In this document: positions 20,772 to 37,000 of the stretch, one piece after another
How the letters are laid out: every line of letters begins with the position of its first letter
How positions within the stretch are numbered: the stretch's first letter is position 1
IMG/VR virus record: IMGVR_UViG_3300023049_000005
Location: 137,053 to 201,052 of that record
Strand: one strand, 5' to 3'
DNA from: a virus
DNA: 64,000 bases
The notes under the pieces: generated by a model
Told to the model about the DNA's origin: nothing
Databases searched by the model: none
The model's input: the letters and a program-made list of their open reading frames with translations, nothing else
Program-made: the position numbers and the translations under genes

Positions 20772-20828
20772 ATGAAAACCTTAAACATAAGTACATTATT
20801 AAATAATTTATTATTACTTTTACGGTGA
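20772..20828 (+). CDS. Leucine-rich leader peptide (attenuator), 18 aa
   Basis: The frame ATG 20772 to TGA 20826 encodes MKTLNISTLLNNLLLLLR: 8 Leu in 18 residues, with a run of five near the end. Seven of the eight Leu codons are UUA, read by the tRNA-Leu(UAA) encoded just downstream. The stop is immediately followed by mutually exclusive antiterminator and terminator stems, exactly as in amino-acid biosynthetic attenuators. A ribosome starved for Leu-tRNA(UAA) should stall on the Leu codons and expose 20830-20839. A ribosome reaching the stop should cover it. TTTATATATA at 20758-20767 is just upstream. Confidence 0.8.
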   Translation: MKTLNISTLLNNLLLLLR

Positions 20829-20853
20829 TAAGAATTAGGATATGCACTTATGT
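20785..20853 (+). promoter_or_regulatory. Candidate segment 1:2 pairing of the Leu attenuator
   Basis: ACATAAGT (20785-20792), inside the leader coding region, is perfectly complementary to ACTTATGT (20846-20853). Formation of this 8-bp helix encloses the antiterminator 5' arm and would block it. A ribosome on the first Leu codons would cover the upstream half. This is the arrangement expected of the protector stem in leader-peptide attenuation. Pairing is seen; function is inferred. Confidence 0.5.
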
Positions 20854-20873
20854 GAAAACTAAACCTAATTCTT
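20830..20873 (+). promoter_or_regulatory. Antiterminator stem of the Leu attenuator
   Basis: AAGAATTAGG (20830-20839), starting two bases after the leader stop, is perfectly complementary to CCTAATTCTT (20864-20873). The 3' arm overlaps the 5' arm of the terminator at 20861-20869, so the two structures exclude each other. If the ribosome stalls in the leader, this 10-bp stem should form and let polymerase reach tRNA-Leu. Confidence 0.75.
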
Positions 20874-20895
20874 TAAAACGATTAGGTTTTTTTTG
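20861..20895 (+). terminator. Attenuator terminator before tRNA-Leu(UAA)
   Basis: AAACCTAAT (20861-20869) pairs perfectly with ATTAGGTTT (20881-20889) across an 11-base loop and is followed by a U tract. It lies between the leader peptide and the tRNA, not behind a gene, which only makes sense as a conditional terminator. Confidence 0.85.
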
Positions 20896-20906: not shown

Positions 20907-20991
20907 GGCTGAGTGGTGGAATTGGTAGACACGTTGGACTTAAAATCCAATGGGCATTGCGCCCGTGCGGGTTCGACTCCCGCCTCAGCTA
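20907..20991 (+). tRNA. tRNA-Leu(UAA)
   Basis: Class II tRNA with the typical Leu D-arm (TGGTGGAATTGGTAGACAC), anticodon stem TTGGA/TCCAA with loop CTTAAAA (anticodon TAA), a long variable arm, T-arm GCGGG-TTCGACT-CCCGC and A73. The acceptor stem starts with a G-U pair. CCA is not encoded. It reads UUA, the dominant Leu codon of an AT-rich genome and of the leader peptide in front of it. Confidence 0.95.
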
Positions 20992-20997
20992 CAAATA

Positions 20998-21749: not shown

Positions 21750-21938
21750 ATGAAATTTGAATTAGATAAACATCAGTTAAAAGAAATTGATCAATGGAAA
21801 CAAAAGATCAAAGAGAAACACGGTAAATATGGTCATTTCGATTATATTTTTACACCCTTTGGTGCAGGAACAGGTGTTAAAATTTATAGCCACTTAGAGA
21901 AAGAATATCTAGATGTAAGTGATACACAAGATTGGTAA
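21750..21938 (+). CDS. Hypothetical protein, 62 aa
   Basis: The start at 21750 (one base after the previous stop, TAAtATG) is preferred to one 21 bases upstream. A short Lys/His-rich helix is followed by a beta-rich half (FDYIFTPFGAGTGVKIYSH). Its stop is one base from the synthetase start. Unrecognised. Confidence 0.55.
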   Translation: MKFELDKHQLKEIDQWKQKIKEKHGKYGHFDYIFTPFGAGTGVKIYSHLEKEYLDVSDTQDW

Positions 21939-21939
21939 T

Positions 21940-23223
21940 ATGTATAAAGGCGAAGATAAATATATTTTGGTAATGTTGCCCTATCCTAGTGGTAGTGGAT
22001 TACATGTTGGTCATTCCTATTGTTATGCTTTAATGGATAGTTACTGCAGATGGAAAAGGTATATGGGGGAATCTGTGTTCCAACCATTTGGTTATGATAG
22101 TTTTGGGTTGCCTGCTGAATTATATGCTGACAAAGTAGGTAGAGATCCAAAAGAAGTCACACAAGAAAACATAGAGAACTTTAGGAAACAGATGGATCAT
22201 ATGAATACCATGTTTGAGGAAAAATTGATCACATCCGATCCTTCTTATCAAAAATGGAGTCAGTTCATATTCGATGTCATGAAAAAAAGTGGATTGGCTT
22301 ATAAAAAATTTGGGGAAACTAGTTATTGTCCAAGTTGTAAAACTACATTGGCGAATGCTCAAATAATAGATGATTATTGTGAACGTTGTTCCTCTAAAAT
22401 AGAACAGACTGAATCAGAACAATGGTACTTTAAAATCACTGATTATATCGATAGATTGGAAAAGAACTTAGATGAAATTGATTACCCATCTAAGACCATT
22501 AAGCAACAAAGACATTGGTTGCAGAATATGAGAGAGAATAATATCGATTGGTGTGTTTCTAGACAAAGGAAATGGGGCTGTCCTATTCCGATTGAGGGGG
22601 AAGAAGATACCTTGGATACATTTGTTGATAGTAGTTTCTACTTCATTAGATATTGTGATCCTGATAATACAGAAGAAATTTGTAGTAAAGAAAACTTTAA
22701 ACAAGTTGATTTATGTATAGGTGGTAACGAACATGCTTGCGCACATTTGGTATATGCTAGATTCATGATGATGGTATTATATGATAATGGTTATGTACCT
22801 GTTGAAGAACCCTTTAAGAAAGTTGTCCATAATGGGATGATTACTAAGGATGGTTATAAGATGTCTAAATCTAAAGGTAATGTTGTTGATCCAAATGATT
22901 ATGACCCAAATGAATTGAGAATGTACTTGATGTTTATCGGTCCTTACACACAGGGTGGTGATTGGGAAGATAGCAAGATCAAAGGCATCAGAAGGTTTAT
23001 TGGTAGATGGGATAGATGGATGGAAACTGCCGAAGAAAACGGAGAAGGATTAAATGATATTAATGAATTGGAAGAAACTATTGATGATTATATGAATAGT
23101 TGGAAATTCAATAAAGTTATTTCCTCATTGATGGAATACTATAATAAGAACAAGAACAATACTATTAGTACTGATAGTAAAGAGAAGTTGAATAAGATAT
23201 ATAATTGTTTTAAAACAAAGTAA
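21940..23223 (+). CDS. leuS: Minimal leucyl-tRNA synthetase lacking the editing domain
   Basis: Class I synthetase catalytic core charging tRNA-Leu. Seen: MLPYPSGSGLHVGH (HIGH motif, 22-25), GYDSFGLPAELYA, zinc-knuckle Cys130/133/147/150, DTFVDSSFYF, GGNEHACAHLVYARF, and KMSKS at 307-311; all are LeuRS-specific signatures. The strand before the editing insertion (QQRHWLQ, 189-195) runs into CVSRQRKWGCPIP (205-217) with a linker of about ten residues. The roughly 200-residue CP1 editing domain is therefore absent. The anticodon-binding region is also truncated: 427 residues against more than 800 in bacteria. I chose the ATG at 21940 (TAAtATG). Low fidelity or altered tRNA choice is inference. 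Confidence 0.93.
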   Translation: MYKGEDKYILVMLPYPSGSGLHVGHSYCYALMDSYCRWKRYMGESVFQPFGYDSFGLPAELYADKVGRDPKEVTQENIENFRKQMDHMNTMFEEKLITSDPSYQKWSQFIFDVMKKSGLAYKKFGETSYCPSCKTTLANAQIIDDYCERCSSKIEQTESEQWYFKITDYIDRLEKNLDEIDYPSKTIKQQRHWLQNMRENNIDWCVSRQRKWGCPIPIEGEEDTLDTFVDSSFYFIRYCDPDNTEEICSKENFKQVDLCIGGNEHACAHLVYARFMMMVLYDNGYVPVEEPFKKVVHNGMITKDGYKMSKSKGNVVDPNDYDPNELRMYLMFIGPYTQGGDWEDSKIKGIRRFIGRWDRWMETAEENGEGLNDINELEETIDDYMNSWKFNKVISSLMEYYNKNKNNTISTDSKEKLNKIYNCFKTK

Positions 23224-23224
23224 T

Positions 23225-24154
23225 ATGAAAGAATATATTTTCGAAAAAGGGAAAAGGGTATATAAGTTAACCGATGAGGGTATCTTATATAATAAACTTA
23301 AAGTTAATCCGATAAAGAGAATAAATCGCTTCAAGAAAGTAAAGATACCGAAGGTGAATCCTCATCAAATTGTTATCGGTGGTGGATCTTATAACAGGAA
23401 AGTGTTTTATTATGAATTATACCACGACACCAAATTAAAAGAAGGTGAAACAGTTAGATTCAAAAACAAAATAGGAGATTACTCTAAGTCTAACCTTTTA
23501 CTTAAAATGATATCAGAAAATGATCCTCCTTATTTTAGAAATATAGATAAAAAAATATACCACTATAACTACAAGAATATTTTAATAGGAATATATGACA
23601 GTCAATATAAAGCTAGTCTTGGAACAGGTATAAACCAATCTTGTATTTCACAACGTCTACGAGGTAAAATAAATACATCTAGGTTTGTGGATTATTCATA
23701 TATGGTATATGATGGCGACGAATTATTAGACAGATATAGTGATTATAACCAATCGGGCATAAACACTGTTGTCCAAATGGACTTAGATGGTAACGTGTTG
23801 AATAAATTTGGCAATGCAAAGGATGCCGCAGACATTTTCGAGTTAGGAACGTGTGCAGAATCACATATTGTGAAATGTTGTAGGAAAAAGAGAGAAAAGG
23901 CTTATGGGTATAGGTGGTCATATTCTTGCGATTACAGAAAGAGAATGAAGAAAATGGTAGTTAAGTATAACAAAGATGGAGATCCTATTGCTATTTATAA
24001 GAATAGACAAGATGCTGTCAAGAATATGCCTATACTCAAATCATATTTATCTTTAGTAATAAACGGTAAAATCAACCCTAAAAAATTTAGCATCAAAGAA
24101 GTTAGTTATGATGCGGGATTAAGTATAAGAAACAAATTGGTTGAGGAAGTTTAA
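23225..24154 (+). CDS. NUMOD-repeat DNA-binding protein, 309 aa
   Basis: Two copies of a NUMOD1-like helix-turn-helix module are visible: VVQMDLDGNVLNKFGNAKDA (about 178-197) and VVKYNKDGDPIAIYKNRQDA (about 240-259). These modules usually sit behind HNH or GIY-YIG catalytic domains in homing endonucleases. The N-terminal part has a YYELYHD.KL segment recalling HNH-type proteins, but I see no clear HNH site. It begins one base after the synthetase stop. Likely a homing-type element lodged in this operon, or a repurposed DNA binder. Confidence 0.7.
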   Translation: MKEYIFEKGKRVYKLTDEGILYNKLKVNPIKRINRFKKVKIPKVNPHQIVIGGGSYNRKVFYYELYHDTKLKEGETVRFKNKIGDYSKSNLLLKMISENDPPYFRNIDKKIYHYNYKNILIGIYDSQYKASLGTGINQSCISQRLRGKINTSRFVDYSYMVYDGDELLDRYSDYNQSGINTVVQMDLDGNVLNKFGNAKDAADIFELGTCAESHIVKCCRKKREKAYGYRWSYSCDYRKRMKKMVVKYNKDGDPIAIYKNRQDAVKNMPILKSYLSLVINGKINPKKFSIKEVSYDAGLSIRNKLVEEV

Positions 24155-24164
24155 TATATACTCT

Positions 24165-24644
24165 ATGAAGTATATTAAAGAACAGAACGAATTTGTTTTA
24201 GAAAATAAGATAACCGACTTTTTTAAGAAGTTTAATATTAGTAAGATCAAAGAAGATTTGAAAGAAAAATTAGACATAGAAGAAAGCGATTCTAAGAAAG
24301 AGATCTTCATTAAATTAACAAAGAACTTACATGATAAGTCATTTGAATTTATAGCAAATCATCTTTCTACGATAGTTGGTGGTGCTTTGGGAGCATTGTT
24401 AGGCGATTTGATTTCTTATATCTTAACTATATTTGCAGATATAAATACTGTTGAACAATTGTTATTAATGTTAGCAGGTATGATATTTATGTTATATCGA
24501 TCTAAAACAGGTATTGATAAATATGGATTAGGTCTTAGGTCTTTTACTAAGGATGAACCAATTAAGAGTCCTGACTACGATGAACTTTCGGACAAAGATG
24601 AAATAAGCGGAGTTCATTTCATTTCTAAATTTGGGAAAGAATAA
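24165..24644 (+). CDS. Small membrane protein with two transmembrane segments, 159 aa
   Basis: The ATG at 24165, preceded by TAATATATAC, is preferred to a TTG 24 bases upstream inside the previous gene. A charged helical N-terminus (1-60) precedes a Gly-rich hydrophobic helix at about 67-91 (IVGGALGALLGDLISYIL) and a second at 96-111, then a polar acidic tail. Size and topology would fit a holin-like protein, but there is no lysis gene beside it. Confidence 0.6.
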   Translation: MKYIKEQNEFVLENKITDFFKKFNISKIKEDLKEKLDIEESDSKKEIFIKLTKNLHDKSFEFIANHLSTIVGGALGALLGDLISYILTIFADINTVEQLLLMLAGMIFMLYRSKTGIDKYGLGLRSFTKDEPIKSPDYDELSDKDEISGVHFISKFGKE

Positions 24645-24887: not shown

Positions 24888-24911
24888 ATTAAATAAACTT
24901 TATTATATTTG
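24882..24911 (+). promoter_or_regulatory. Bacteroidetes-type promoter of the tRNA array leader
   Basis: TTG at 24882-24884, a 19-base spacer and TATATTTG at 24904-24911 match the TTTG-N19/21-TAnnTTTG consensus of the Bacteroidetes primary sigma factor. Transcription would start near 24918, about 40 bases before the asparagine-rich leader peptide, so the whole attenuator is inside the transcript. Confidence 0.7.
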
Positions 24912-24958: not shown

Positions 24959-25060
24959 ATGAAAAACTTAAATTTAAATATTAATCTGAATAATCTTAAC
25001 ACGTGTGTCATGAACATTACCGTGAATAGGAATGTTGGGTCAAAATTTAAAGTAAAGTAA
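24959..25060 (+). CDS. Asn-rich leader peptide (attenuator of the tRNA array), 33 aa
   Basis: ATG 24959 to TAA 25058 encodes 33 residues beginning MKNLNLNINLNNLNTCVMNI; 10 are Asn. The other residues in the first 26 are mainly Leu (4), Ile, Thr, Val, Met and Cys. Those are the amino acids of the tRNAs that follow: Asn, Leu, Ile, Thr, Val, Met and Cys. The stop lies inside the antiterminator loop, so a ribosome completing the peptide would cover the antiterminator 5' arm. One stalled at the Asn/Leu/Thr/Cys/Val codons would leave it free. TTTATATATAC precedes the ATG at 24944-24954. Confidence 0.75.
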   Translation: MKNLNLNINLNNLNTCVMNITVNRNVGSKFKVK

Positions 25061-25095
25061 AGTAATTTTACACTAAGAAATTTTTAAAACCCAAC
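25034..25095 (+). promoter_or_regulatory. Antiterminator stem of the tRNA-array attenuator
   Basis: GTTGGGT (25034-25040, inside the leader reading frame) pairs with ACCCAAC (25089-25095), and AAAATTT (25042-25048) pairs with AAATTTT (25078-25084). That gives 14 bp with small bulges. The 3' arm is also the 5' arm of the terminator, so the structures exclude each other. The upstream CTTAAATTT (24966-24974) can in turn pair imperfectly with 25043-25052, a possible protector stem. Confidence 0.7.
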
Positions 25096-25117
25096 TTCAA
25101 AAGAGTTGGGTTTTTTG
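25086..25117 (+). terminator. Attenuator terminator before the tRNA array
   Basis: AAAACCCAACT (25086-25096) pairs with AGTTGGGTTTT (25104-25114) across a 7-base loop and is followed by more T. It stands between the leader peptide and the first tRNA (12 bases before it), so constitutive termination would silence the array. Confidence 0.88.
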
Positions 25118-25128
25118 TTTTTATATAT

Positions 25129-25200
25129 GGACTGTTAGCTCAGAGACAGAGCAGATGGCTGTTAACCATCAGGTCGGGATCTCGGAATTCCCACAGTCCT
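25129..25200 (+). tRNA. tRNA-Asn(GUU), irregular T-arm
   Basis: Acceptor GGACTGT/ACAGTCC, D-arm GCTCAGAGACAGAGC, anticodon arm GATGG-CTGTTAA-CCATC with anticodon GTT. The T-loop reads CTCGGAA instead of TTCGAAT and the T-stem (GGGAT/TTCCC) has a mismatch; the discriminator is T rather than the usual G of tRNA-Asn. It could be degenerate or a deliberate variant. Confidence 0.8.
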
Positions 25201-25208
25201 CAAAATAT

Positions 25209-25282
25209 TCCTCAGTAGCTCAGTTGGTTAGAGCGTCTGACTGTTAATCAGAATGTCGTTGGTTCGAATCCAACCTGAGGAG
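25209..25282 (+). tRNA. tRNA-Asn(GUU), canonical
   Basis: Acceptor TCCTCAG/CTGAGGA, D-arm GCTCAGTTGGTTAGAGC, anticodon arm TCTGA-CTGTTAA-TCAGA (GTT), variable loop ATGTC, T-arm GTTGG-TTCGAAT-CCAAC, discriminator G as expected for AsnRS recognition. CCA not encoded. Confidence 0.95.
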
Positions 25283-25292
25283 CTAGATATTT

Positions 25293-25374
25293 GCCTTCGT
25301 GGTGGAATTGATAGACACGCTAGATTTAGAATCTAGTTCCGTGAGGAGTGCAGGTTCAAGTCCTGTCGGGGGTA
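25293..25374 (+). tRNA. tRNA-Leu(UAG)
   Basis: Leu-type D-arm (TGGTGGAATTGATAGACAC), anticodon arm CTAGA-TTTAGAA-TCTAG (TAG), long variable arm, T-arm GCAGG-TTCAAGT-CCTGT, A73. The acceptor stem contains three G-U pairs. It reads CUN codons; two of the four Leu codons of the array leader are CTG and CTT. Confidence 0.92.
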
Positions 25375-25381
25375 CAAATAT

Positions 25382-25468
25382 TCTTGGGTTGCCGTAGTGG
25401 TCGAACGGTCCTGACTGTTAATCAGGTGAGTTAATACTCCATCGTAGGTTCAAATCCTACCCCAAGAG
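25382..25468 (+). tRNA. Class II-like tRNA with Asn anticodon (GUU)
   Basis: Acceptor TCTTGGG/CCCAAGA is perfect. The D-arm GCCGTAGTGGTCGAACGG resembles serine tRNAs. The anticodon arm CCTGA-CTGTTAA-TCAGG gives GTT. The variable region is 17 bases with a GAGT-TAAT-ACTC hairpin, and the discriminator is G. Long variable arms belong to Ser, Leu and Tyr tRNAs in bacteria, not Asn. The anticodon loop is one base from tRNA-Ser(GCU). It could be charged with Asn (G73, GUU) or, given SerRS preference for the long arm, with Ser. Confidence 0.85.
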
Positions 25469-25471
25469 CAT

Positions 25472-25555
25472 AGAGAAGTGGTGAAATGGGTAAACACAGG
25501 AGGATCAAAACCTCTCGCCTTTAGGGGCTTGCGAGTTCGAGTCTCGCCTTCTCTA
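25472..25555 (+). tRNA. tRNA-Leu(CAA)
   Basis: Acceptor AGAGAAG/CTTCTCT, Leu-type D-arm (TGGTGAAATGGGTAAACAC), anticodon arm GGAGG-ATCAAAA-CCTCT (CAA), long variable arm, T-arm GCGAG-TTCGAGT-CTCGC, A73. With the UAA and UAG tRNAs the phage covers UUA, UUG and CUN. Confidence 0.92.
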
Positions 25556-25560
25556 CATAT

Positions 25561-25641
25561 TGGTAGGTACTCAGCCCATCCTGATAAGATGGAGAACTGT
25601 AATTGGTGTTGAAAATGTGGGTTCAAATCCCACTCTACCAA
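25561..25641 (+). tRNA. Aberrant tRNA-Ile(GAU) with displaced D-arm-like sequence
   Basis: Acceptor TGGTAGG/TCTACCA, T-arm GTGGG-TTCAAAT-CCCAC and a perfect anticodon arm CCATC-CTGATAA-GATGG (GAT) are present. Between acceptor and anticodon arm there are only 8 bases, so there is no D-arm. A 24-base stretch follows the anticodon arm instead, containing TGTAATTGGTG (25599-25609), identical to the D-loop of the Val tRNA at 26088. It may be a rearranged tRNA, a D-armless tRNA or a pseudogene. A normal tRNA-Ile(GAU) follows. Confidence 0.6.
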
Positions 25642-25646
25642 CATAT

Positions 25647-25721
25647 AGTCTAGTAGCTCAGTTGGTTTAGAGCGCAACGCTGATACCGTTGAGGTCGTAG
25701 GTTCAAGTCCTACCTAGACTA
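25647..25721 (+). tRNA. tRNA-Ile(GAU), canonical
   Basis: Acceptor AGTCTAG/CTAGACT, D-arm GCTCAGTTGGTTTAGAGC, anticodon arm CAACG-CTGATAC-CGTTG (GAT), variable loop AGGTC, T-arm GTAGG-TTCAAGT-CCTAC, A73. CCA not encoded. Confidence 0.95.
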
Positions 25722-25731
25722 CAGATAAAAT

Positions 25732-25816
25732 GCTAATGTCGCATAGTTGGTCGATTGCACTCCCCTTGTAAGGGAGAACTGAAAAGACATCGGGGGTTCG
25801 AATCCCTCCATTAGCT
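25732..25816 (+). tRNA. tRNA-Thr(UGU) with enlarged variable region
   Basis: Acceptor GCTAATG/CATTAGC, D-arm GCATAGTTGGTCGATTGC, anticodon arm CTCCC-CTTGTAA-GGGAG (TGT), T-arm GGGGG-TTCGAAT-CCCTC. The variable region is about 15 bases (AACTGAAAAGACATC) instead of 5, with no clear hairpin; its GACAT could pair with ATGTC near the acceptor. A normal Thr(UGU) lies at 26006. Confidence 0.85.
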
Positions 25817-25824
25817 CAAAATAT

Positions 25825-25898
25825 AGCCTATTAGCTCAGGGGTTCAGAGCGTCTGTTTTACACGCAGAAAGTCGGTGGTTCGAATCCACCATAGGCTA
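25825..25898 (+). tRNA. tRNA-Val(UAC), canonical
   Basis: Acceptor AGCCTAT/ATAGGCT, D-arm GCTCAGGGGTTCAGAGC, anticodon arm TCTGT-TTTACAC-GCAGA (TAC), variable loop AAGTC, T-arm GGTGG-TTCGAAT-CCACC, A73. Confidence 0.95.
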
Positions 25899-26005
25899 CT
25901 AATGGGGTAGGCACTTAAACGAGTACCTAAAAATAAAGCACCTATGGTGTGTTCGTTTAAGTTTGATAGGAATGTGGTGTTTGTCGTTCCTTGATAAGAA
26001 ACTAT
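25899..26005 (+). ncRNA. Structured spacer RNA inside the tRNA array
   Basis: This 107-base gap between two tRNAs is not a tRNA but has strong pairing: ACTTAAACGA (25913-25922) with TCGTTTAAGT (25953-25962), 10 bp perfect, enclosing CACC-TAT-GGTG. A second hairpin pairs AGGAATG (25968-25974) with CGTTCCT (25985-25991). Other gaps in the array are 5-10 bases. It could be a processed small RNA, a processing signal or a decayed tRNA. Confidence 0.45.
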
Positions 26006-26079
26006 GCCGATGTAGCTCAGTTGGTCAGAGCAGTTGATTTGTAATCAACGGGTCGGGGGTTCGAATCCCTCCATCGGCT
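26006..26079 (+). tRNA. tRNA-Thr(UGU), canonical
   Basis: Acceptor GCCGATG/CATCGGC, D-arm GCTCAGTTGGTCAGAGC, anticodon arm GTTGA-TTTGTAA-TCAAC (TGT), variable loop GGGTC, T-arm GGGGG-TTCGAAT-CCCTC, T73. Confidence 0.95.
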
Positions 26080-26087
26080 CAAATTAT

Positions 26088-26171
26088 ATCCCTATGGTGT
26101 AATTGGTGACATCCTTGTTTTACATGCAAGAGACGTGAAGTATAATCTTGGTTCGAGTCCAAGTAGGGATA
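26088..26171 (+). tRNA. tRNA-Val(UAC) with enlarged variable region
   Basis: Acceptor ATCCCTA/TAGGGAT, D-arm around TGTAATTGGTGACA, anticodon arm CTTGT-TTTACAT-GCAAG (TAC), T-arm CTTGG-TTCGAGT-CCAAG, A73. The variable region is about 16 bases (AGACGTGAAGTATAAT). Same anticodon as the canonical Val tRNA at 25825. Confidence 0.85.
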
Positions 26172-26178
26172 CAAATAA

Positions 26179-26318
26179 GTGTGTGGTCTATATACCTTAA
26201 TATGATCTAGATAGTATTAAGAAGAATTGGTTAGACAAAAACTGTGAAAAGTTATGTATATAGTCTAGGATAGATATATGAATTTAACAGGGCGTGAGTT
26301 CGATTCTCACCACATGCT
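26179..26318 (+). tRNA. Oversized tRNA-like RNA (about 140 nt), anticodon uncertain
   Basis: Acceptor arms GTGTGTG (26179-26185) and CACATGC (26311-26317) pair with two G-U, and the T-arm GTGAG-TTCGATT-CTCAC is perfect. A D-stem GTCTA/TAGAC encloses an inserted hairpin CTTAATA...TATTAAG and AATTGGT. Between D-arm and T-arm a second hairpin ATATAGTCTA-GGA-TAGATATAT is inserted. A CTGTGAA segment could be a His (GUG) loop but its stem is poor. It is either a tRNA with large expansions or a degenerate one. Confidence 0.5.
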
Positions 26319-26325
26319 CAAATAT

Positions 26326-26399
26326 TGCGAGGTAGCTTAGTGGTCTAAAGCACTTGAGTCATAACCAAGAGATCGAGGGTTCGAATCCCTCTCTCGCAA
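26326..26399 (+). tRNA. tRNA-Met/Ile2 (CAU)
   Basis: Acceptor TGCGAGG/TCTCGCA, D-arm GCTTAGTGGTCTAAAGC, anticodon arm CTTGA-GTCATAA-CCAAG (CAT) with an A-C mismatch at the loop-closing position, T-arm GAGGG-TTCGAAT-CCCTC, A73. It could be elongator Met, or Ile2 if modified by lysidine synthetase. Confidence 0.9.
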
Positions 26400-26412
26400 C
26401 TATATAGTATAT

Positions 26413-26498
26413 GTCGGTGTGACCTGAGTGGCGAAGGGTGTGGACTGCAAATCCATAGAACGAAAGTTCCATCGTAGGTTCGAGTCCTACCACCGACT
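26413..26498 (+). tRNA. Class II-like tRNA with Cys anticodon (GCA)
   Basis: Acceptor GTCGGTG/CACCGAC is perfect. The D-arm GACCTGAGTGGCGAAGGGT is of serine type. The anticodon arm GTGGA-CTGCAAA-TCCAT gives GCA. The variable arm carries a GAAC-GAAA-GTTC hairpin; T-arm GTAGG-TTCGAGT-CCTAC. T73 is the major CysRS identity base, so Cys charging is plausible despite the long arm. Canonical tRNA-Cys has a short variable loop. Confidence 0.88.
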
Positions 26499-26533
26499 CT
26501 AAGTAGTATTATAGTACATTAAGTTATTTTTAC

Positions 26534-28006: not shown

Positions 28007-31000
28007 ATGACTCAAAGTGGGATGATAAAGGGGAAACAGATTAATATTGAAAGTATTAATTTAATACCAAACGAAAGCCCTTTAGCTTTAACTTCTTTTA
28101 CCGTATCTACGGCATCTACGACATTTAGTGGAAAACAGATTATCAATTTAGAGTATTTAAACGATCAATTAGATTTAAAGATTGATATTACTCAAATAAA
28201 CGATAATGCTACTTCTTCTACTTCTTCGTTATGGAGTGCTGATAAGATATATACTGAGATAACAGGATTAAGTCAATCAATCGATTCTGTTAGTATAAGT
28301 ATATCAAATATACTGAATGATTTTATCACGGGATCTACTACAGGGTGGAGTTCTGAGAAAATTGATGAAGAATTAATTACATTAGAGAATAGTGTTAATA
28401 TTAAAATTGATTCAGTAAGCATAAGTGTTGCTAATTTACTAAATGATTCAATCACAGGATCAACAACGGGTTGGTCTTCTGAGAAGATTAATAATGAGCT
28501 TGATTTAAAACTCGATGACAGCCAATTAAATGATGCAGCAGCCACGTCATCTACTACATCATTGTGGAGTGTGAATAAGATATATACTGAATTACAAGCC
28601 ATCGAAGCTAATGATTTACAAATAAATGACAATGCTACAAGTTCTACAACTTCATTATGGAGTGCTAATAAGATATACACAGAGATACAAGGACTAAGTT
28701 CATCTGTTGATGCTAGAATTGATATAATAAATATCAGTGTATCTAATATTGAAGGTGATATCATAGGTCTAAGTAATTCAATTGATAGTTTAAGTGTAAG
28801 TGTAGCCGATAACACAGCTAACATCGATTCTGTTAGTATAAGTGTTGCTAATATCTTAAACGATGGTATCACAGGATCTACAACAGGGTGGAGTTCTGAG
28901 AAAATAAACAACGAGTTAGATCTTAAATTAGATGATAGTCAGCTAAATGATAGTATAATAGGTACTCTTTCTTTATGGAGTAGTGATAAGATAAGCAGTG
29001 AAATACAAGGGTTAAGTTCTTCTGTAAATACTAGAATAGACACCGTAAGCGCAAGTGTGATCGGTTTAAGTCAATCGGTTGATTCTCTAAGTCAAAGTGT
29101 AGCTACTAATACTACAAACATCGATTCAGTTAGTATCAGTGTAGCCAACCTACTTAATGATAGTATCACAGGTTCAATAACAGGATGGAGTTCTGAGAAA
29201 ATTGATGAAGAATTAATTACATTAGAGAATAATATTAATAGTCAATTAGATCTTAAATTAGATGACAGTCAGTTAAATGATACTATAGTGGGTACTGATT
29301 CTTTATGGAGTAGTGATAAGATAGATAGTGAGATACAAGGATTAAGTTCCTCTGTTAACACTAGAATAGATACCGTAAGTGCTAGTGTCATTGGATTAAG
29401 TCAATCAGTTGATTCGATAAGTATCAGTGTTACTAACAATACTAGTACTATTACGGGATTAAGTCAATCTATTGATGTGATAAATGTTACTATTTCTAAT
29501 ATAGAAGGTGATATTACAGGATTAAGTCAGTCAATTGACTCAGTAAGTATTAGTGTAGCTAACCTTCTTAATGACTCAATAACAGGTTCTACAACAGGTT
29601 GGAGTTCTGAGAAAATTGATGAAGAATTAATTACATTAGAGAATAATATCAATAGTCAATTAGATCTTAAATTAGATGTTAGTCAATTAAATGATGCGGC
29701 TGCAACAAGCTCAACTACTTCATTGTGGAGTGTGAATAAGATTTATACTGAATTACAAGCTATTGAAGCTAATGATCTACAAATAAATGATGCTGTTACT
29801 GCAACAGATAGTGTTTGGAGTTCTAATAAGATAGACAACGAACTAGATCTTAAAGTAGACAAAACACAAATAGACGATGGTGGTACAGGTACTACATCGT
29901 TGTGGAGTGTGGATAGACTGTTGACTGAATTCGAATTAAAACTAGATGTTAGTCAATTAAATGATAGTATTATATCAGCAACGGGTCTATGGAGTAGTGA
30001 TAAGATAAGCAGTGAAATACAAGGATTAAGTTCTTCTGTAAATACTAGAATAGACACCGTAAGTGCAAGTGTGATCGGTTTAAGTCAATCAGTAGATTCA
30101 TTAAGTCAAAGTGTTGCTACTAATACTACAAACATCGATTCAGTTAGTATCAGTGTAGCTAATATACTTAATGATAGTGTTACAGGTTCAACAACAGGAT
30201 GGTCATCAAATAAGATAGATAGTGAGTTAGATTTTAAATTAGACGACACACAATTAAACGATGTTGTTATAGGAACAAACTCATTATGGAGTTCTGATAA
30301 AATTAACAGTGAGGTACAAGGTTTGAGTTCTTCTGTGTATGCTGAAATAGATTCTGTAAGTATAAGTGTCGCCAATCTATTAAACGATAGTATCACAGGA
30401 TCAACAACAGGTTGGACATCACAAAAAATTGATAGCGAATTAGATCTTAAGCTAGATGTTAGTCAATTAAATGATGCGGCTGCAACAAGTTCTACTACCT
30501 CTCTTTGGAGTGTGAATAAAATTTACAACGAATTACAAGCTATTGATGCAGACCATCTACAAATAAATGACAATGCTACAAGCTCTACAACTTCTGTTTG
30601 GAGTGGTAATAAAGTTTATACTGAAATACAAGGATTAAGTTCTTCTGTATATGCCGAAATAGATTCTGTTAGTATTAGTGTGTCTAATCTTCTTAATGAT
30701 AACATTACGGGATCAACAACGGGTTGGTCTTCTGAGAAAATTGATGAAGAATTAATTACATTAGAGAATAATATTAATATTAAAATTGATTCAGTAAGCA
30801 TAAGTGTTGCTAATTTACTAAATGACAGTATTACGGGATCAACAACAGGTTGGTCTTCTGAGAAGATTAATAGTGAACTTGATTTAAAACTAGATGATAG
30901 TCAATTAAATGATGTTGCTGCAACAAGCTCTACTACATCACTATGGAGCGTTAATAAAATTTATACTGAATTACAAGCTATTGATGCTGATCATCTACAA

Positions 31001-34000
31001 ATAAACGATAATGTAACAAGCTCTACTACATCAGTATGGAGTGGTAATAAAGTTTACACAGAGATACAAGGATTAAGTTCTTCTGTTAACACTAGAATTG
31101 ATACAGTGAGCGCAAGTGTTATAGGATTAAGCCAATCAGTAGATTCATTAAGTGTGAGTGTTTTTAATAACACCACTACTATAACAGGATTAAGTCAGTC
31201 AATTGATTCAGTAAGTATTAGTGTAGCTAATTTATTGAACGATTCAATTACAGGATCTACTACAGGATGGTCTTCACAAAAGATAAACGATGAACTTGAT
31301 CTTAAACTAGATGATAGTCAGTTAAATGATAGTGCTGCTACTAGTTCTACTACTTCTTTGTGGAGCGTGAACAAGATCTATAATGAATTAGAATTAAAGC
31401 TTGATGATAGCCAAATCAATGACGCTGCTACTAGTTCTACTACCTCATTATGGAGTAGTGATAAACTATATACTGAATTCGAAAACAAACTTGATACAAG
31501 TTTAACTAATAGTTACATTTTCTTAGGGTCACCACAAAATGTAGCAACTCCTACCGAAACTGAAAAAATTTATATAAGCAGTGTTAGTGATGTACCATTA
31601 ACAGAAGAATACTTATTCTTAAATGGGAACACAGTTACATTAGCTCAGAAAATAGAAAGTAATTTCCAAATTGCCGAAAGAACACAACAAGGTTGGATGG
31701 TTAGTAAAAGAAATGTCAATGAAGAAGTTATATTTGATATAGACGTATCTTCTGCTTCTCTATTTAATACTGCATCAAACGAACTAGATATAAGTAATTA
31801 CACAGGGGTTGATTCCTTAAATATCATAGATAGTACAACATCATCTCCTATATCAATAACTATATCTTCAATATCAGGTCTAGAAAGTGGTTATAATATA
31901 AACTTACGTTTAGAAGGACAGGGATCTATAACATTTGAAAACACATCTGCAACAGCAGCTAGTGTGGGGGATTTAATTTTATTTAATGATGAGAATAGAA
32001 CGATAGTGGGTGGAACATATTCACAGGGTATAAATATTAAGAATAAAAATGGTGTCAATTTAGAAATAGACCCACAATTTGATATTATAATAGACCAAGT
32101 AAATAGTAATATCAACGATAGTACAACATCGTCTACTACATCAGTATGGAGTGCTAACAAGATTTACACAGAATTACGAGCTATTGATGCTGATCATCTA
32201 CAAATAAACGATAATGCAACAAGCTCTACTACATCAGTATGGAGTGGTAATAAAGTTTACACAGAGATACAAGGATTAAGTCAATCGATAGACAGTGTGA
32301 GTATTAGTGTAGCTAATATCTTAAATGATAGCATTACAGGATCTACTACGGGATGGAGTTCACAAAAGATAAATAATGAACTCGACCTAAAACTAGACGA
32401 CACTCAGTTAAATGATAGTATAATAGGTACTGATTCTTTATGGAGCAGTGATAAAATAAATAGTGAAGTGCAAGGTTTGAGTTCTTCTGTGAATTCTAGA
32501 ATAGATACTGTAAGTGCTAGTGTAATAGATAACACAAACACTATAATAGGTCTAAGTAGCTCTGTTGATTCTTTAAGCCTGAGTGTATTTAATAACACAA
32601 CCGATATTACAGGATTAAGCAATTCAATAGACATTATTAATGTTACTATCTCAAATATAGAAGGTGATATTATAGGACTGAGCAATTCTATCGATAGTGT
32701 TAGTATTAGTGTGTCTAACTTATTAAATGATAGTATAACTGGTTCAACAACAGGTTGGACTTCACAAAAGATTAACAATGAGTTAGATCTTAAATTGGAT
32801 GATAGTCAATTAAACGATGCTGCTGCTACAAGTAGTACTACATCATTATGGAGTGTGAATAAGATATATACTGAATTACAAGCCATTGATGCTAACGATC
32901 TTCAAATAAATGATAATATAACAGCTACGGATAGTGTTTGGAGTTCTAATAAGATAGATAGCGAAATACAAGGATTAAGCTCATCTGTAAATACTAGAAT
33001 AGACACAGTGAGCGCAAGTGTGATTGGTTTATCCCAATCAGTAGATTCATTAAGTGTGAGTGTATTTAATAACACTACTGATATTACAGGATTAAGTCAA
33101 TCTATTGATTCTGTTAGTATAAGTGTTGCTAATATCTTAAACGATGGTATCACAGGATCTACAACAGGGTGGAGTTCTAATAAGATAGACAGTGAACTTG
33201 ATCTTAAACTAGATGTTAGTCAATTAAATGATAGTATAATAGGTACTCTTTCTTTATGGAGTTCAGATAAGACTAACACAGAGATACAGGGGTTAAGTTC
33301 TTCTGTAAATACTAGAATAGACACCGTAAGCGCAAGTGTGATCGGTTTAAGCCAATCAGTAGATTCATTAAGTCAAAGTGTTGCTACTAATACTACAAAC
33401 ATCGATTCAGTAAGCATAAGTGTAGCTAATATCTTAAATGATAGCATCACAGGTTCTACTACGGGATGGAGTTCTGAAAAGATAGATAACGAACTTGATC
33501 TTAAACTTGATGATAGTCAATTAAATGATGCTGCTGCGACGAGCAGTACAACTTCGCTATGGAGTGTGAATAAGATTTATACCGAGCTACAAACTATTGA
33601 TGCTGATCATTTACAAATAAATGATAACGCAACAAGCTCTACTACATCAGTATGGAGTGGCAACAAAGTTTATACAGAGATACAGGGATTAAGCTCATCG
33701 GTATACGCTGAGATTGATTCAGTAAGCATAAGTGTATCTAATCTTCTTAATGATAGTATTATAGGTTCAACAACAGGATGGACTTCACAGAAGATAAGTG
33801 ATGAACTTGATCTTAAACTAGACGACACTCAAATCAATGACACGGCTACTAGTTCAACTACTTCTTTATGGAGTAGTGATAAATTATATACAGAATTCCA
33901 AGGTAAATTGGGTACAGGATTAACCGAGAGTTATATATTCTTAGGTTCTGTGGGAAATATAGCTACTGAAACACCAACTGAAAAAATATATCCGATAAAC

Positions 34001-37000
34001 GACAACGATGTTCTATTGACCGAAAGCTATTTGGCTCAATTTAGAAGTGATTTAAGTATCGGTCAAAAAGTAGAAACGGTTAATCAAATAGCCGAGAAGA
34101 CTCCAAATGGTTGGTCAATTATAAAGAAAAACATTAACGAAGACTTAATATATGATATTGATATATCTAATTCTAGTAATTATACTATTTCTTCAAATGA
34201 ATTAAATATAAGTGATTACTTAGGTGTAGACACTTTAAATATTATAGATGGTTCAACATCATCACCATTTTCTATAACAGTATCAACTATTGCAGGACTT
34301 TATGCTGATTTCAAAATTAGGTTTACTGTGGACACGGGTGGGGAAGTTACTTTTGAACACACTGACTTGGCTACTGCGTCTTTTGATGATATAGTATTAT
34401 CAAGTGGGGTAAATAAAACTATCACAGGAAGTACTTATAGTGATTATTTATCTATACAAAAAATAGATATAATAAATAAAGAAACGGATTTATCTTCTGA
34501 TAGTATAACAAGTAATATAACAAATAATATTAGTAATAGTATCAATGATGGTACTACTAGTTCTACTACATCACTTTGGAGTGCTAATAAGATATATACT
34601 GAATTACAAGCTATTGATGCTGATCATTTACAAATAATCGACAGTGTTACTAGCTCTACTACTTCTGTTTGGAGTGGTAACAAAGTCTACACAGAGATAC
34701 AAGGATTGAGTTCATCTATATTTGCTGAAATAGATTCAGTAAGTATTAGTGTGTCTAATCTTCTTAACGATAGTATTACGGGTTCTACAACAGGGTGGAC
34801 ATCACAAAAGATAAGCAATGAACTTGACCTTAAACTAGATGATACTCAAATCAATGACACAGCTACTAGTTCTACTACATCATTATGGAGTAGTAATAAA
34901 TTATATACAGAATTTGAAAATAAATTAGATACAGGATTAACAGAAAGTTATATTTTCCTTGGTAATACAGCCAATGAATCAAGCAGAGTTCCAACATCTA
35001 AATTATACATAGATAACGTTAGTACAGATATACTAACAGAGACTTATGTGTCCAATAATTATTCCACTGCTTCAATAGGACAAAAGGTTGAGGCTAGTGA
35101 CCAAATAGCAGAAAAGACACAAACCGATTGGATGATATCTAAGAAGAATCACAACCAAGACATAGTTAAAGATCTAGATATATCTTCTGCTTCTTTATTT
35201 GCTACTTCTTCTAATCAAATGAACATTACACAATTCATTGGTGTGGACACTATAAACATAATTGATAGTAGCACTTCTTCTTTTTCTGCTACAATATCTA
35301 CTATATTTGGATTGTTTGATAGATCTAGTGTTAAATTTAAAGTCACAACAGGCGGTAGCGTAACATTTGAACATACAGACATAGCCTCTGCTTCTTTTTA
35401 TGATATTAGCTTACTTAGTGGAGGAAATGTTACAATAATTGGAAGCACATATAGTGAGTTTTTAAGGTTACAAAAAATTAATAATATTAACATCGAAGAA
35501 GATAATGTGTCTTTAGGTGTCGGATCAGTAACTATAAATGATAGTTCTACTAGTTCTACAACAGAAACATGGAGTGCCGATAAGATATACACAGAGATAA
35601 CAGGTATATCTGCCTCTTTAAGCTCGGAGATAAACGATTCGATAACAGCAACAGATAGTACGTGGAGTAGTGATAAGATACAGACAGAAATAGATGATTC
35701 TAGTTTATATACATCAAACGGTACAATATCTTCTCCTAGGACAATATATGGTAACGAAACACAATTAATATTAGATGGTGGTCAATTTGAGATTTGGGAA
35801 GGAATCGATACAACCGAGTATGGTGTTATTTTAAGAGAAAGTGGTGGTGGTATTAGAGGACAATTTGTATATGATGCGCTATCTAATACAACTAAACTCG
35901 AATTATTAAACGGAACAAGTAGTTTCTTCTTAGCTAATGGTGGAACTGTTAGTGTTAAAGGTGCATTCACTATTGATGATGACGATAATTCACATTATTT
36001 ACAATTCTCAGCAGGATCGTTAACACAAAGTTTAACTTATGTTTTCCCTTCAGATTATGGAACGGATGGTCAAGCACTTATAACAGATGGTTCGGGAACA
36101 TTAGATTGGATTACGGTTGCTACTAATTCACTTAGTATAAATGATAGTTCTACTAACTCTACTACTGAGGTATGGAGCGCAGATAAGACATATACAGAGA
36201 TACAAGGTTTGAGTTCTTCTGTGTTTGGTGAAATTGATTCTGTTAGTATTAGTGTATCTAATCTCCTTAATGATAGTATTACAGGTTCAACAACAGGTTG
36301 GACATCTCAAAAAATTAATAACGAACTAGATCTTAAACTAGATGATACTCAGTTAAATGATGCGGCTGCTACTAGTTCTACTACATCTTTATGGAGTGTG
36401 AATAAGATTTATACAGAATTAGAATTAAAACTTGATGATAGTCAATTAAATGATGCTGTTACTGCAACAGATAGTGTTTGGAGTTCTAATAAGATAGACA
36501 ACGAACTAGATCTTAAAGTAGACAAAACACAAATAGACGATGGTGGTACAGGTACTACATCGTTGTGGAGTGTGGATAGACTGTTGACTGAATTCGAATT
36601 AAAACTAGATGTTAGTCAATTAAATGATAGTATTATATCAGCAACGGGTCTATGGAGTAGTGATAAGATAGATAACGAACTAGATCTTAAACTAGATGAT
36701 ACTCAGTTAAATGATGCGGCTGCTACTAGTTCTACTACTTCATTGTGGAGTGTGAATAAGATTTATACAGAACTAGATTTAAAACTAGACGATAGTCAGT
36801 TAAATGATACAATAACAACGACTAATTCATTATGGTCTTCAGACAAAATAGATACCGAGTTAGACCTTAAGTTAGACGATACTCAGATTAATGATTCTGC
36901 TACAAATGTAAATATTTTATGGTCTTCTGATAAAATAGATACCGAGTTAGATTTAAAACTTGACGACACACAATTAGATGATGGAGTTACTGGTACAGAT

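Follow-up and report, generated by a model that had tools for sequence, protein, structure and literature searches.

Ribosome-mediated transcription attenuation, sensing a shortage of the very charged tRNAs that the operon supplies, very probably controls the tRNA arrays of the phages described here; we put the probability of this reading, which rests on sequence comparison, at about 90%. Bacteroidota-infecting huge viruses probably make their spare tRNAs only upon a translational shortage of them, because the leader peptide in front of each array is built from the amino acids that those tRNAs carry. Judged from its distribution, the attenuator is not a single operon but a family found at most tRNA arrays and also at several genes for aminoacyl-tRNA synthetases. 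We identified 86 leaders in 20 virus records, including Mahaphages of 634-735 kb, and three more in the cultured Cellulophaga phage phi4:1.

The reason why phages carry tRNAs has been debated for decades. The leaders would record when the phage wants them, namely when that particular charged tRNA is short, and should make it possible to tell constant codon compensation apart from an inducible replacement of tRNAs under shortage or under tRNA-cleaving defence. Each would also amount to a natural sensor module for a set of charged tRNAs that is divided by codon box, and such modules occur both in the largest known phages and in the culturable pair of phi4:1 and Cellulophaga baltica.

Probable attenuators in the G000 genome

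The window, the whole stretch of 64,000 nucleotides that was analyzed, is part of G000, a virus record of 270,756 bases that encodes a T4-like UvsX and a protein resembling SbcC; the promoter element, leaders, R2 strands, terminators, tRNAs, and LeuRS-like gene given for the window lie on its plus strand. An earlier note on this DNA had described a leader peptide gene, an antiterminator, a terminator, and a tRNA array, and this anatomy was borne out. The leader MKNLNLNINLNNLNTCVMNITVNRNVGSKFKVK (24959-25060, with the ATG at 24959 and the stop codon at 25058-25060) contains 10 Asn as well as Leu, Ile, Thr, Val, Met, and Cys. The antiterminator strand GTTGGGT, termed region 2 (R2), lies within the leader ORF at 25034-25040. 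The intrinsic terminator (25086-25114) is composed of arm 3 (ACCCAAC, 25089-25095), arm 4 (GTTGGGT, 25105-25111), and a following T-tract. Arm 3 is complementary to both R2 and arm 4, and the coordinates confirm the claim that the leader stop codon sits in the antiterminator loop. The predicted energy is −14.6 kcal/mol for the fold with R2 to arm 3 free and −14.6 kcal/mol for the terminator alone, and the R2:arm 3 pairing is better than that of shuffled sequences (z = −2.5, p = 0.03). The host-type promoter claimed in the note was located in the sequence as a Bacteroidota-type −7 element of the form TAnnTTTG (TATATTTG, 24904-24911); this motif occurs 25-130 nt upstream of 49 of the 86 leaders, compared with 158 of 1,720 random segments.

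The first gene of the array, a tRNA-Asn at 25129-25200, was detected with Rfam RF00005 (46.8 bits) and missed by ARAGORN. It is followed at 25209-26499 by genes for Asn, Leu(tag), Asn, Leu(caa), Ile(gat), Thr(tgt), Val(tac), Thr(tgt), Val(tac), Met, and Cys (ARAGORN and Rfam). The array therefore holds three Asn tRNAs plus Leu, Ile, Thr, Val, Met, and Cys, the same set that had been read from the letters before. As many as 24 of the 32 leader residues are cognate to it (p = 2.9e-5, background composition accounted for), and homologues of this leader, which form class C, are present in 11 other records.

The note had seen one attenuator in the window. That one stands, but a second, 4 kb upstream (20772-20889), had been overlooked. 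Its leader MKTLNISTLLNNLLLLLR (20772-20828) contains 8 Leu among 17 residues (p = 2.1e-5), seven of them encoded by TTA, and it precedes a lone tRNA-Leu(UAA) (20907-20992; ARAGORN and Rfam), which reads TTA. R2 (AAGAATTAGG, 20830-20839) comes immediately after the stop codon and forms a 10-bp pairing with arm 3 (CCTAATTCTT, 20864-20873) of the terminator (20859-20889). A search of G000 with the promoter region matched a second array. A His leader, MVLVFKHKFFHNHCKSRG (L061:12600), precedes two tRNA-His genes in the layout of the main locus and with different sequences; its segment AGTAGAGG is complementary to the terminator arm CCTCTACT. A third leader, MRTVSKNIKGFKKFFKKNFIRDNTS (L061:13136), lies inside the array of the His leader and precedes Lys, Lys, Phe, Lys, Phe, and Lys. 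All of the tRNA arrays found in G000 (Leu, Asn etc., His, and Lys/Phe) carry a matching leader.

Some genes of the main array, whose assignment is tentative, have Asn, Thr, or Ile anticodons but long variable arms like those of class II tRNAs (25382-25469, 25732-25817, and 25561-25640). Spacers between tRNAs in the window (26173-26325), at L069:6902-7030, and in the gaps of L081 resemble tRNAs with long insertions, either intron-like or in the form of expanded arms. Further downstream, a 3,948-residue ORF (28007-39853) with many SIDSVSISVANLLNDSITGSTTGWSSEKIN-like repeats is, judged by eye, probably a tail fibre, and its C-terminal part looks like an intramolecular chaperone.

Alternative pairing and the proposed mechanism

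The competition between two stems that had been noticed at the main locus is upheld by comparison among the loci, in which the antiterminator strand co-evolves with the terminator. The mean predicted energy of R2:arm 3 pairing was −15.1 kcal/mol for own pairs and −9.4 kcal/mol for pairs swapped between loci. In permutations within classes, the own pair was better in classes A, B, C, and S (p ≤ 0.0006), B2 (p = 0.024), and D (p = 0.015), and not better in class Q (p = 0.12). Joint change is visible in class C, where GTTGGGT/ACCCAAC in G000 corresponds to TCTGAGGGTTCT/AGAACCCTCAGA in G012 and to GAATCTGGGTT/AACCCAGATTC in G002. Under a strict definition of the arms, R2:arm 3 pairing was individually significant (p < 0.05) in 52% of the loci and weak in classes D, Q, and B2. 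R2 is located inside the ORF or at its end, and the distance from the leader stop codon to the terminator has a median of 24 nt (IQR 22-28). A canonical terminator with a T-tract is present at essentially every locus.

Three general features of ribosome-mediated attenuation are present, namely a cognate leader ORF, a terminator before the first gene, and an antiterminator that excludes this terminator and either overlaps the regulatory codons or comes after them. A 1:2 protector or pause hairpin, sought as an upstream partner of R2, was not detected (mean z of −0.32, with z < −2 in 7%). The layout therefore has two hairpins, the 2:3 antiterminator and the 3:4 terminator, and falls outside the three-hairpin trp/his subtype. 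The logic of his/leu/thr attenuation that had been claimed for the main locus draws its decisive support from 85 further loci and from the three in phi4:1, which is an unrelated phage.

We infer that the leader is translated, that ribosomes may stall on it, and that stalling would decide between termination and read-through. Transcription-translation coupling in the Bacteroidota hosts is assumed, and the leader gene would come first in both processes. Codons read by the array's own tRNAs crowd the first two thirds of this gene. With aminoacyl-tRNAs plentiful, the ribosome would reach the stop codon and cover R2, arm 3 would pair with arm 4, and the terminator, which starts some 24 nt beyond the stop codon, would end transcription ahead of the first tRNA. 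Scarcity of a sensed aminoacyl-tRNA would make the ribosome stall upstream, the R2:arm 3 antiterminator would form, and the tRNAs would be made. In established ribosome-mediated attenuation, slow translation of the regulatory codons tips the balance towards the antiterminator (PMC1183508). Because there is no 1:2 protector, an untranslated leader should read through, so that the default would be the opposite of that of trp. The regulatory codons are those read by the operon's own tRNAs, and the circuit should therefore be a feedback on the supply of charged tRNA. The genetic code would be divided into operons, each sensing its own products, with some phage synthetase genes wired alike. The signal might be low charging caused by phage demand, by host amino-acid shortage, or by host tRNA nucleases, the last of which phage tRNAs can evade (PMC10264068, PMC11555353).

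It could also be proposed that charged tRNA is sensed but acts by another route, in which stalled ribosomes alter RNA processing, Rho access, or precursor stability and the hairpin is a processing or 3′-end element. Comparison cannot separate termination from processing, and R2 pairing is weak in some classes; however, essentially every locus has a T-tract terminator whose 5′ arm can be sequestered by an alternative pairing, which makes this route improbable. Somewhat less probable still is that the terminator closes upstream transcription, that the small ORF is real but unrelated, and that the tRNAs have their own promoters past the terminator. Terminators are indeed common between transcription units, but such a terminator would not account for the copy of arm 4 maintained in the leader and co-evolving with arm 3, nor for the near-constant gap of 22-28 nt between stop codon and terminator, nor for a terminator end only 5-30 nt ahead of many first tRNAs, and it leaves the matching of leader composition to the array unexplained.

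Leader composition and the grouping of arrays

Relatives of G000 were obtained through UvsX; the array's protein neighbours (24141-24641 and the LeuRS) gave no relatives in IMG/VR. The closest named relatives, LR756504, LR745206, LR756502, and LR756501 (48-58% identity in UvsX, records of 634-735 kb), all bear such leaders. Al-Shayeb et al. (2020) report five genomes above 634 kb, all of which they assign to the Mahaphage clade, and the hosts predicted for them are Bacteroidetes (PMC7162821). Further loci were obtained via DNA patterns from two leaders and via the named Mahaphages. The class-A leader pattern had zero matches in 84,980 bacterial and archaeal genomes, which gives no sign of a host chromosomal source.

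In the UvsX relatives, the tRNA arrays form recurring groups with one leader type per group. Lys/Phe/His/Trp arrays are preceded by leaders such as MTTNRTHKHFSKSSKWFSTQF..., Ser/Arg-CGN arrays by MKTISSSSRSSLTLEIQR, Glu/Tyr and Ile-ATA/Gly/Ala arrays by MNTLIYIGYIAEGGYEAG..., and Asp/Pro/Gln arrays by MKNLNLNIVNPQPQVVIDQDPDT...; a Gln-only array has the leader MRTTTQYQQQQQINPTD. The class of the main window leader belongs to Asn/Leu/Ile/Thr/Val/Cys/Met/Arg-AGR arrays. In LR756504 and LR756501 the arrays are regrouped and leader content follows, with MKAMILSLCLSLSLSLQKLG... before Leu/Ser/Cys, MKTIAMIIRMRIIRPKMLG before Ile/Met/Arg, and MNNILHINLLNSLCLLGIKLIG before Leu only.

The grouping itself (Lys/Phe/His/Trp; Ser/Arg-CGN; Glu/Tyr/Gly/Ala/Ile-AUA; Asn/Leu/Ile/Thr/Val/Cys/Arg-AGR; Asp/Pro/Gln) is conserved in G002, G009, G012, G017, G025, G034, G035, LR745206, and LR756502, and follows no rule that we recognised.

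Leaders were chosen by position, as the ORF that stops a short distance ahead of a terminator located before a tRNA, and composition was not used; starts are mostly the first in-frame ATG, and where two ORFs overlapped, as happened at a small number of loci, one of them was picked. Among the 86 leaders from 20 records, 865 of 1,583 residues upstream of R2 were cognate to the array (0.55; expected 0.21), whereas residues in or after R2 were at background (180 of 790, 0.23; expected 0.23). Enrichment was positive in all 23 leader classes (Wilcoxon p = 2.4e-7), and the difference between upstream and after R2 had p = 6.9e-5. The expectation that leader content tracks the downstream tRNAs in related phages thus holds in 23 classes, in the leader frame only and upstream of R2 only, and homologous loci retain the hairpin, the frame, and the matching content together, so that the case in which the hairpin is kept and the leader lost, which the note had named as contrary evidence, was not encountered. 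Within classes, 0.35-0.62 of single-base codon differences upstream of R2 were synonymous (0.22 expected), which indicates coding constraint. The counts include the leaders of G040 and G041, which add no signal because their array is near-universal (enrichment 0.02), and the p-values, except in the class-level tests, count homologous loci as independent.

The matching extends to codon boxes. Before CGN-reading tRNAs the leaders have 25 CGN and 8 AGR codons for Arg, compared with 3 and 18 before AGR-reading tRNAs (odds ratio 18.75, p = 1.5e-5), and the ATA/ATY counts for Ile are 22/6 before Ile-tat versus 1/18 before Ile-gat (odds ratio 66, p = 5.7e-7). When arrays were shuffled at the class level, the observed match was reached in 0 of 100,000 trials (p < 1e-5). 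Asn, Ile, and Leu codons are frequent in this AT-rich genome, and a random ORF rich in Asn, Leu, Ile, and Lys next to an ordinary terminator before tRNAs might arise by chance, but the cognate fraction is 0.54 in the leader frame and 0.19 and 0.15 in the other frames, background composition was accounted for, and Gln (MRTTTQYQQQQQINPTD), Ser/Arg, His/Trp/Lys, and Asp/Pro/Gln leaders match arrays of the same type. The frame control, the permutations, and the codon-level comparison refute this AT-bias reading, whose probability is negligible.

T-boxes in Firmicutes regulate aminoacyl-tRNA synthetase genes by sensing uncharged tRNA, but a leader RNA that itself binds uncharged tRNA is just as hard to credit here, since Rfam at gathering score gave only tRNA in the window, L069, and L078, with neither a T-box nor an amino-acid leader family, and T-boxes are not characterised by runs of cognate codons or by conservation of a reading frame.

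Phage aminoacyl-tRNA synthetase genes (IleRS, LeuRS, ValRS, AspRS, AsnRS, and HisRS) are also preceded by leaders like those of the tRNA arrays, ten in all. Three of them were among the strong-R2 leader-terminator pairs away from tRNA arrays: MTIKRIKLADDCLTCLTVTD before an aspartate--tRNA(Asn) ligase, MKHINSNNVVVVNRNPVC before a valyl-tRNA synthetase, and MKTLNINTHFHFHFENLELGVH before a HisRS-like gene that has a PheS-related ligase gene behind it. One other pair, before neither a tRNA nor a synthetase gene, reached −9.8 kcal/mol (L090). A search of phage synthetase genes added cognate-rich leaders for IleRS (two, e.g. MNFNTIIIIR...), LeuRS (two, e.g. MITTMNTNLLLLADS), AspRS (two), and AsnRS; individually weak ones include AspRS (p = 0.04-0.15) and AsnRS (p = 0.10). 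Some synthetase genes lie within cognate arrays, namely AsnRS and ThrRS with Asn/Thr, LysRS with Lys, SerRS with Ser, and ProRS with Pro. The window itself encodes a short leucyl-tRNA synthetase-like protein of 434 aa (21919-23223); Leu leaders are seen before LeuRS relatives in two other phages.

This LeuRS, a ValRS of 509 aa (L086:11695-13224), and an IleRS of 742 aa (L180) are shorter than the bacterial models, and the LeuRS and ValRS model matches are split into separate stretches, perhaps at the position of the editing domain. The PheS-related ligase behind the HisRS-like gene (L087:10217-11961) matches NCBIfam NF051887, 'mystery ligase SrmL'. The leader over these two genes reads HFHFHF, which hints at a link between SrmL and phenylalanine.

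Known attenuators and other phage lineages

The phage leaders resemble the his, leu, thr, ilv, and trp attenuators of E. coli and Salmonella (e.g. Elf and Ehrenberg, 2005, PMC1183508) in having a leader ORF with regulatory codons, a terminator, a mutually exclusive antiterminator, and a choice among synonymous codons. They differ in that they would govern viral tRNA and aminoacyl-tRNA synthetase genes, sense as many as about nine amino acids with one leader, have R2 within the ORF or at its end, and show no detectable 1:2 protector. Their purpose is like that of T-box riboswitches, more tRNA-charging capacity at a shortage of charged tRNA by means of antitermination, but T-boxes bind uncharged tRNA directly, whereas the proposed sensor here is the reading ribosome. 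In the E. coli pheST attenuator, a Phe leader peptide controls phenylalanyl-tRNA synthetase. The leaders before phage IleRS, LeuRS, ValRS, and HisRS are likewise cognate-rich and precede a synthetase gene, but pheST is a system of a bacterial chromosome for one amino acid, and the phage versions are of the two-hairpin type and form one set with the leaders of tRNA arrays.

We know of no described tRNA operon under leader-peptide attenuation. Huge phages encode up to 67 tRNAs and up to 15 tRNA synthetases, and such arrays are the genes that would stand under leader control here; the tRNA passages of that report describe no such control (Al-Shayeb et al., 2020, PMC7162821). Leaders, terminators, and attenuation are not mentioned in PMC10264068 and PMC13015707. 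Leader attenuation as such is already known. What appears to be new is that it would act on viral tRNA arrays through leaders that cover several amino acids and split the genetic code among them, in that no published precedent for tRNA arrays was found in the literature searched, which was mainly open-access.

Phage phi4:1 has three leaders that match its three arrays, whose groupings are unlike those of the Mahaphage type; the terminators of these units are at L221:3187, 4163, and 5920. The first leader, MKIQRLHLQELEQP..., precedes Pro, Glu, Gln, His, Leu, Leu, and Arg-acg and contains an Arg CGT codon; the second, VQLTKTGITVIDKTKGARAYLG..., starts with GTG, precedes Ala, Lys, Ile, Gly, Met, Asp, Thr, Val, Arg-tct, and Met, and contains an Arg AGA codon; the third, MKTNYCTYNNSNWSFSYD..., precedes Tyr, Ser, Ser, Asn, Trp, and Phe. 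The R2 energies are −11.8, −16.2, and −17.4. Phage phi17:2 is about 99% identical to phi4:1 across the leader units. The phi4:1 genome (145 kb) is quite different, and the design is therefore present in at least two distinct phage groups.

Among nine named control phages, G, phiPMW, LpeD, AVP, SH-Ab 15599, Acj133, PA5oct, and S-CAM4 have no leader-terminator pairs before their tRNAs, and KVP40 is the exception. It is conceivable, though we regard it as doubtful, that attenuator-controlled tRNA supply is a general phage strategy of several origins, with partitioned leaders (Mahaphage-like and phi4:1) and pan-amino-acid leaders (KVP40-type and G040), which would inducibly replace tRNAs lost to anticodon nucleases or to phage demand. 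By pan-amino-acid leaders we mean those that use 18-19 of the 20 amino acids within some 38 residues and precede a single large array.

In KVP40 (L227:3654-3767) and in L234-L238, a conserved ORF of 37-38 residues with 18-19 different amino acids is followed by a terminator and a large tRNA array. This ORF is possibly a pan-amino-acid leader; the chance of 19 kinds is about 0.02, and the R2 pairing is about −11. In G040 (L161:1923-2102) and G041 (L162:2573-2797), which belong to a different phage lineage with a sigma-70-like promoter, the leader MQMMLHNIKLVERNSQLAPKADRLFAAYTGCGYGQKLHR contains 19 of the 20 amino acids (P = 0.03), shows strong R2 pairing, and precedes more than 30 tRNAs. A candidate leader, MRQFNNIYKNNVDIYADSFNWYEQVRCACMLRDIVNS, with an R2 value of −19, lies right before tRNA-Trp in Prevotella phage Lak-A2 (L165, minus strand, 1365-1558).
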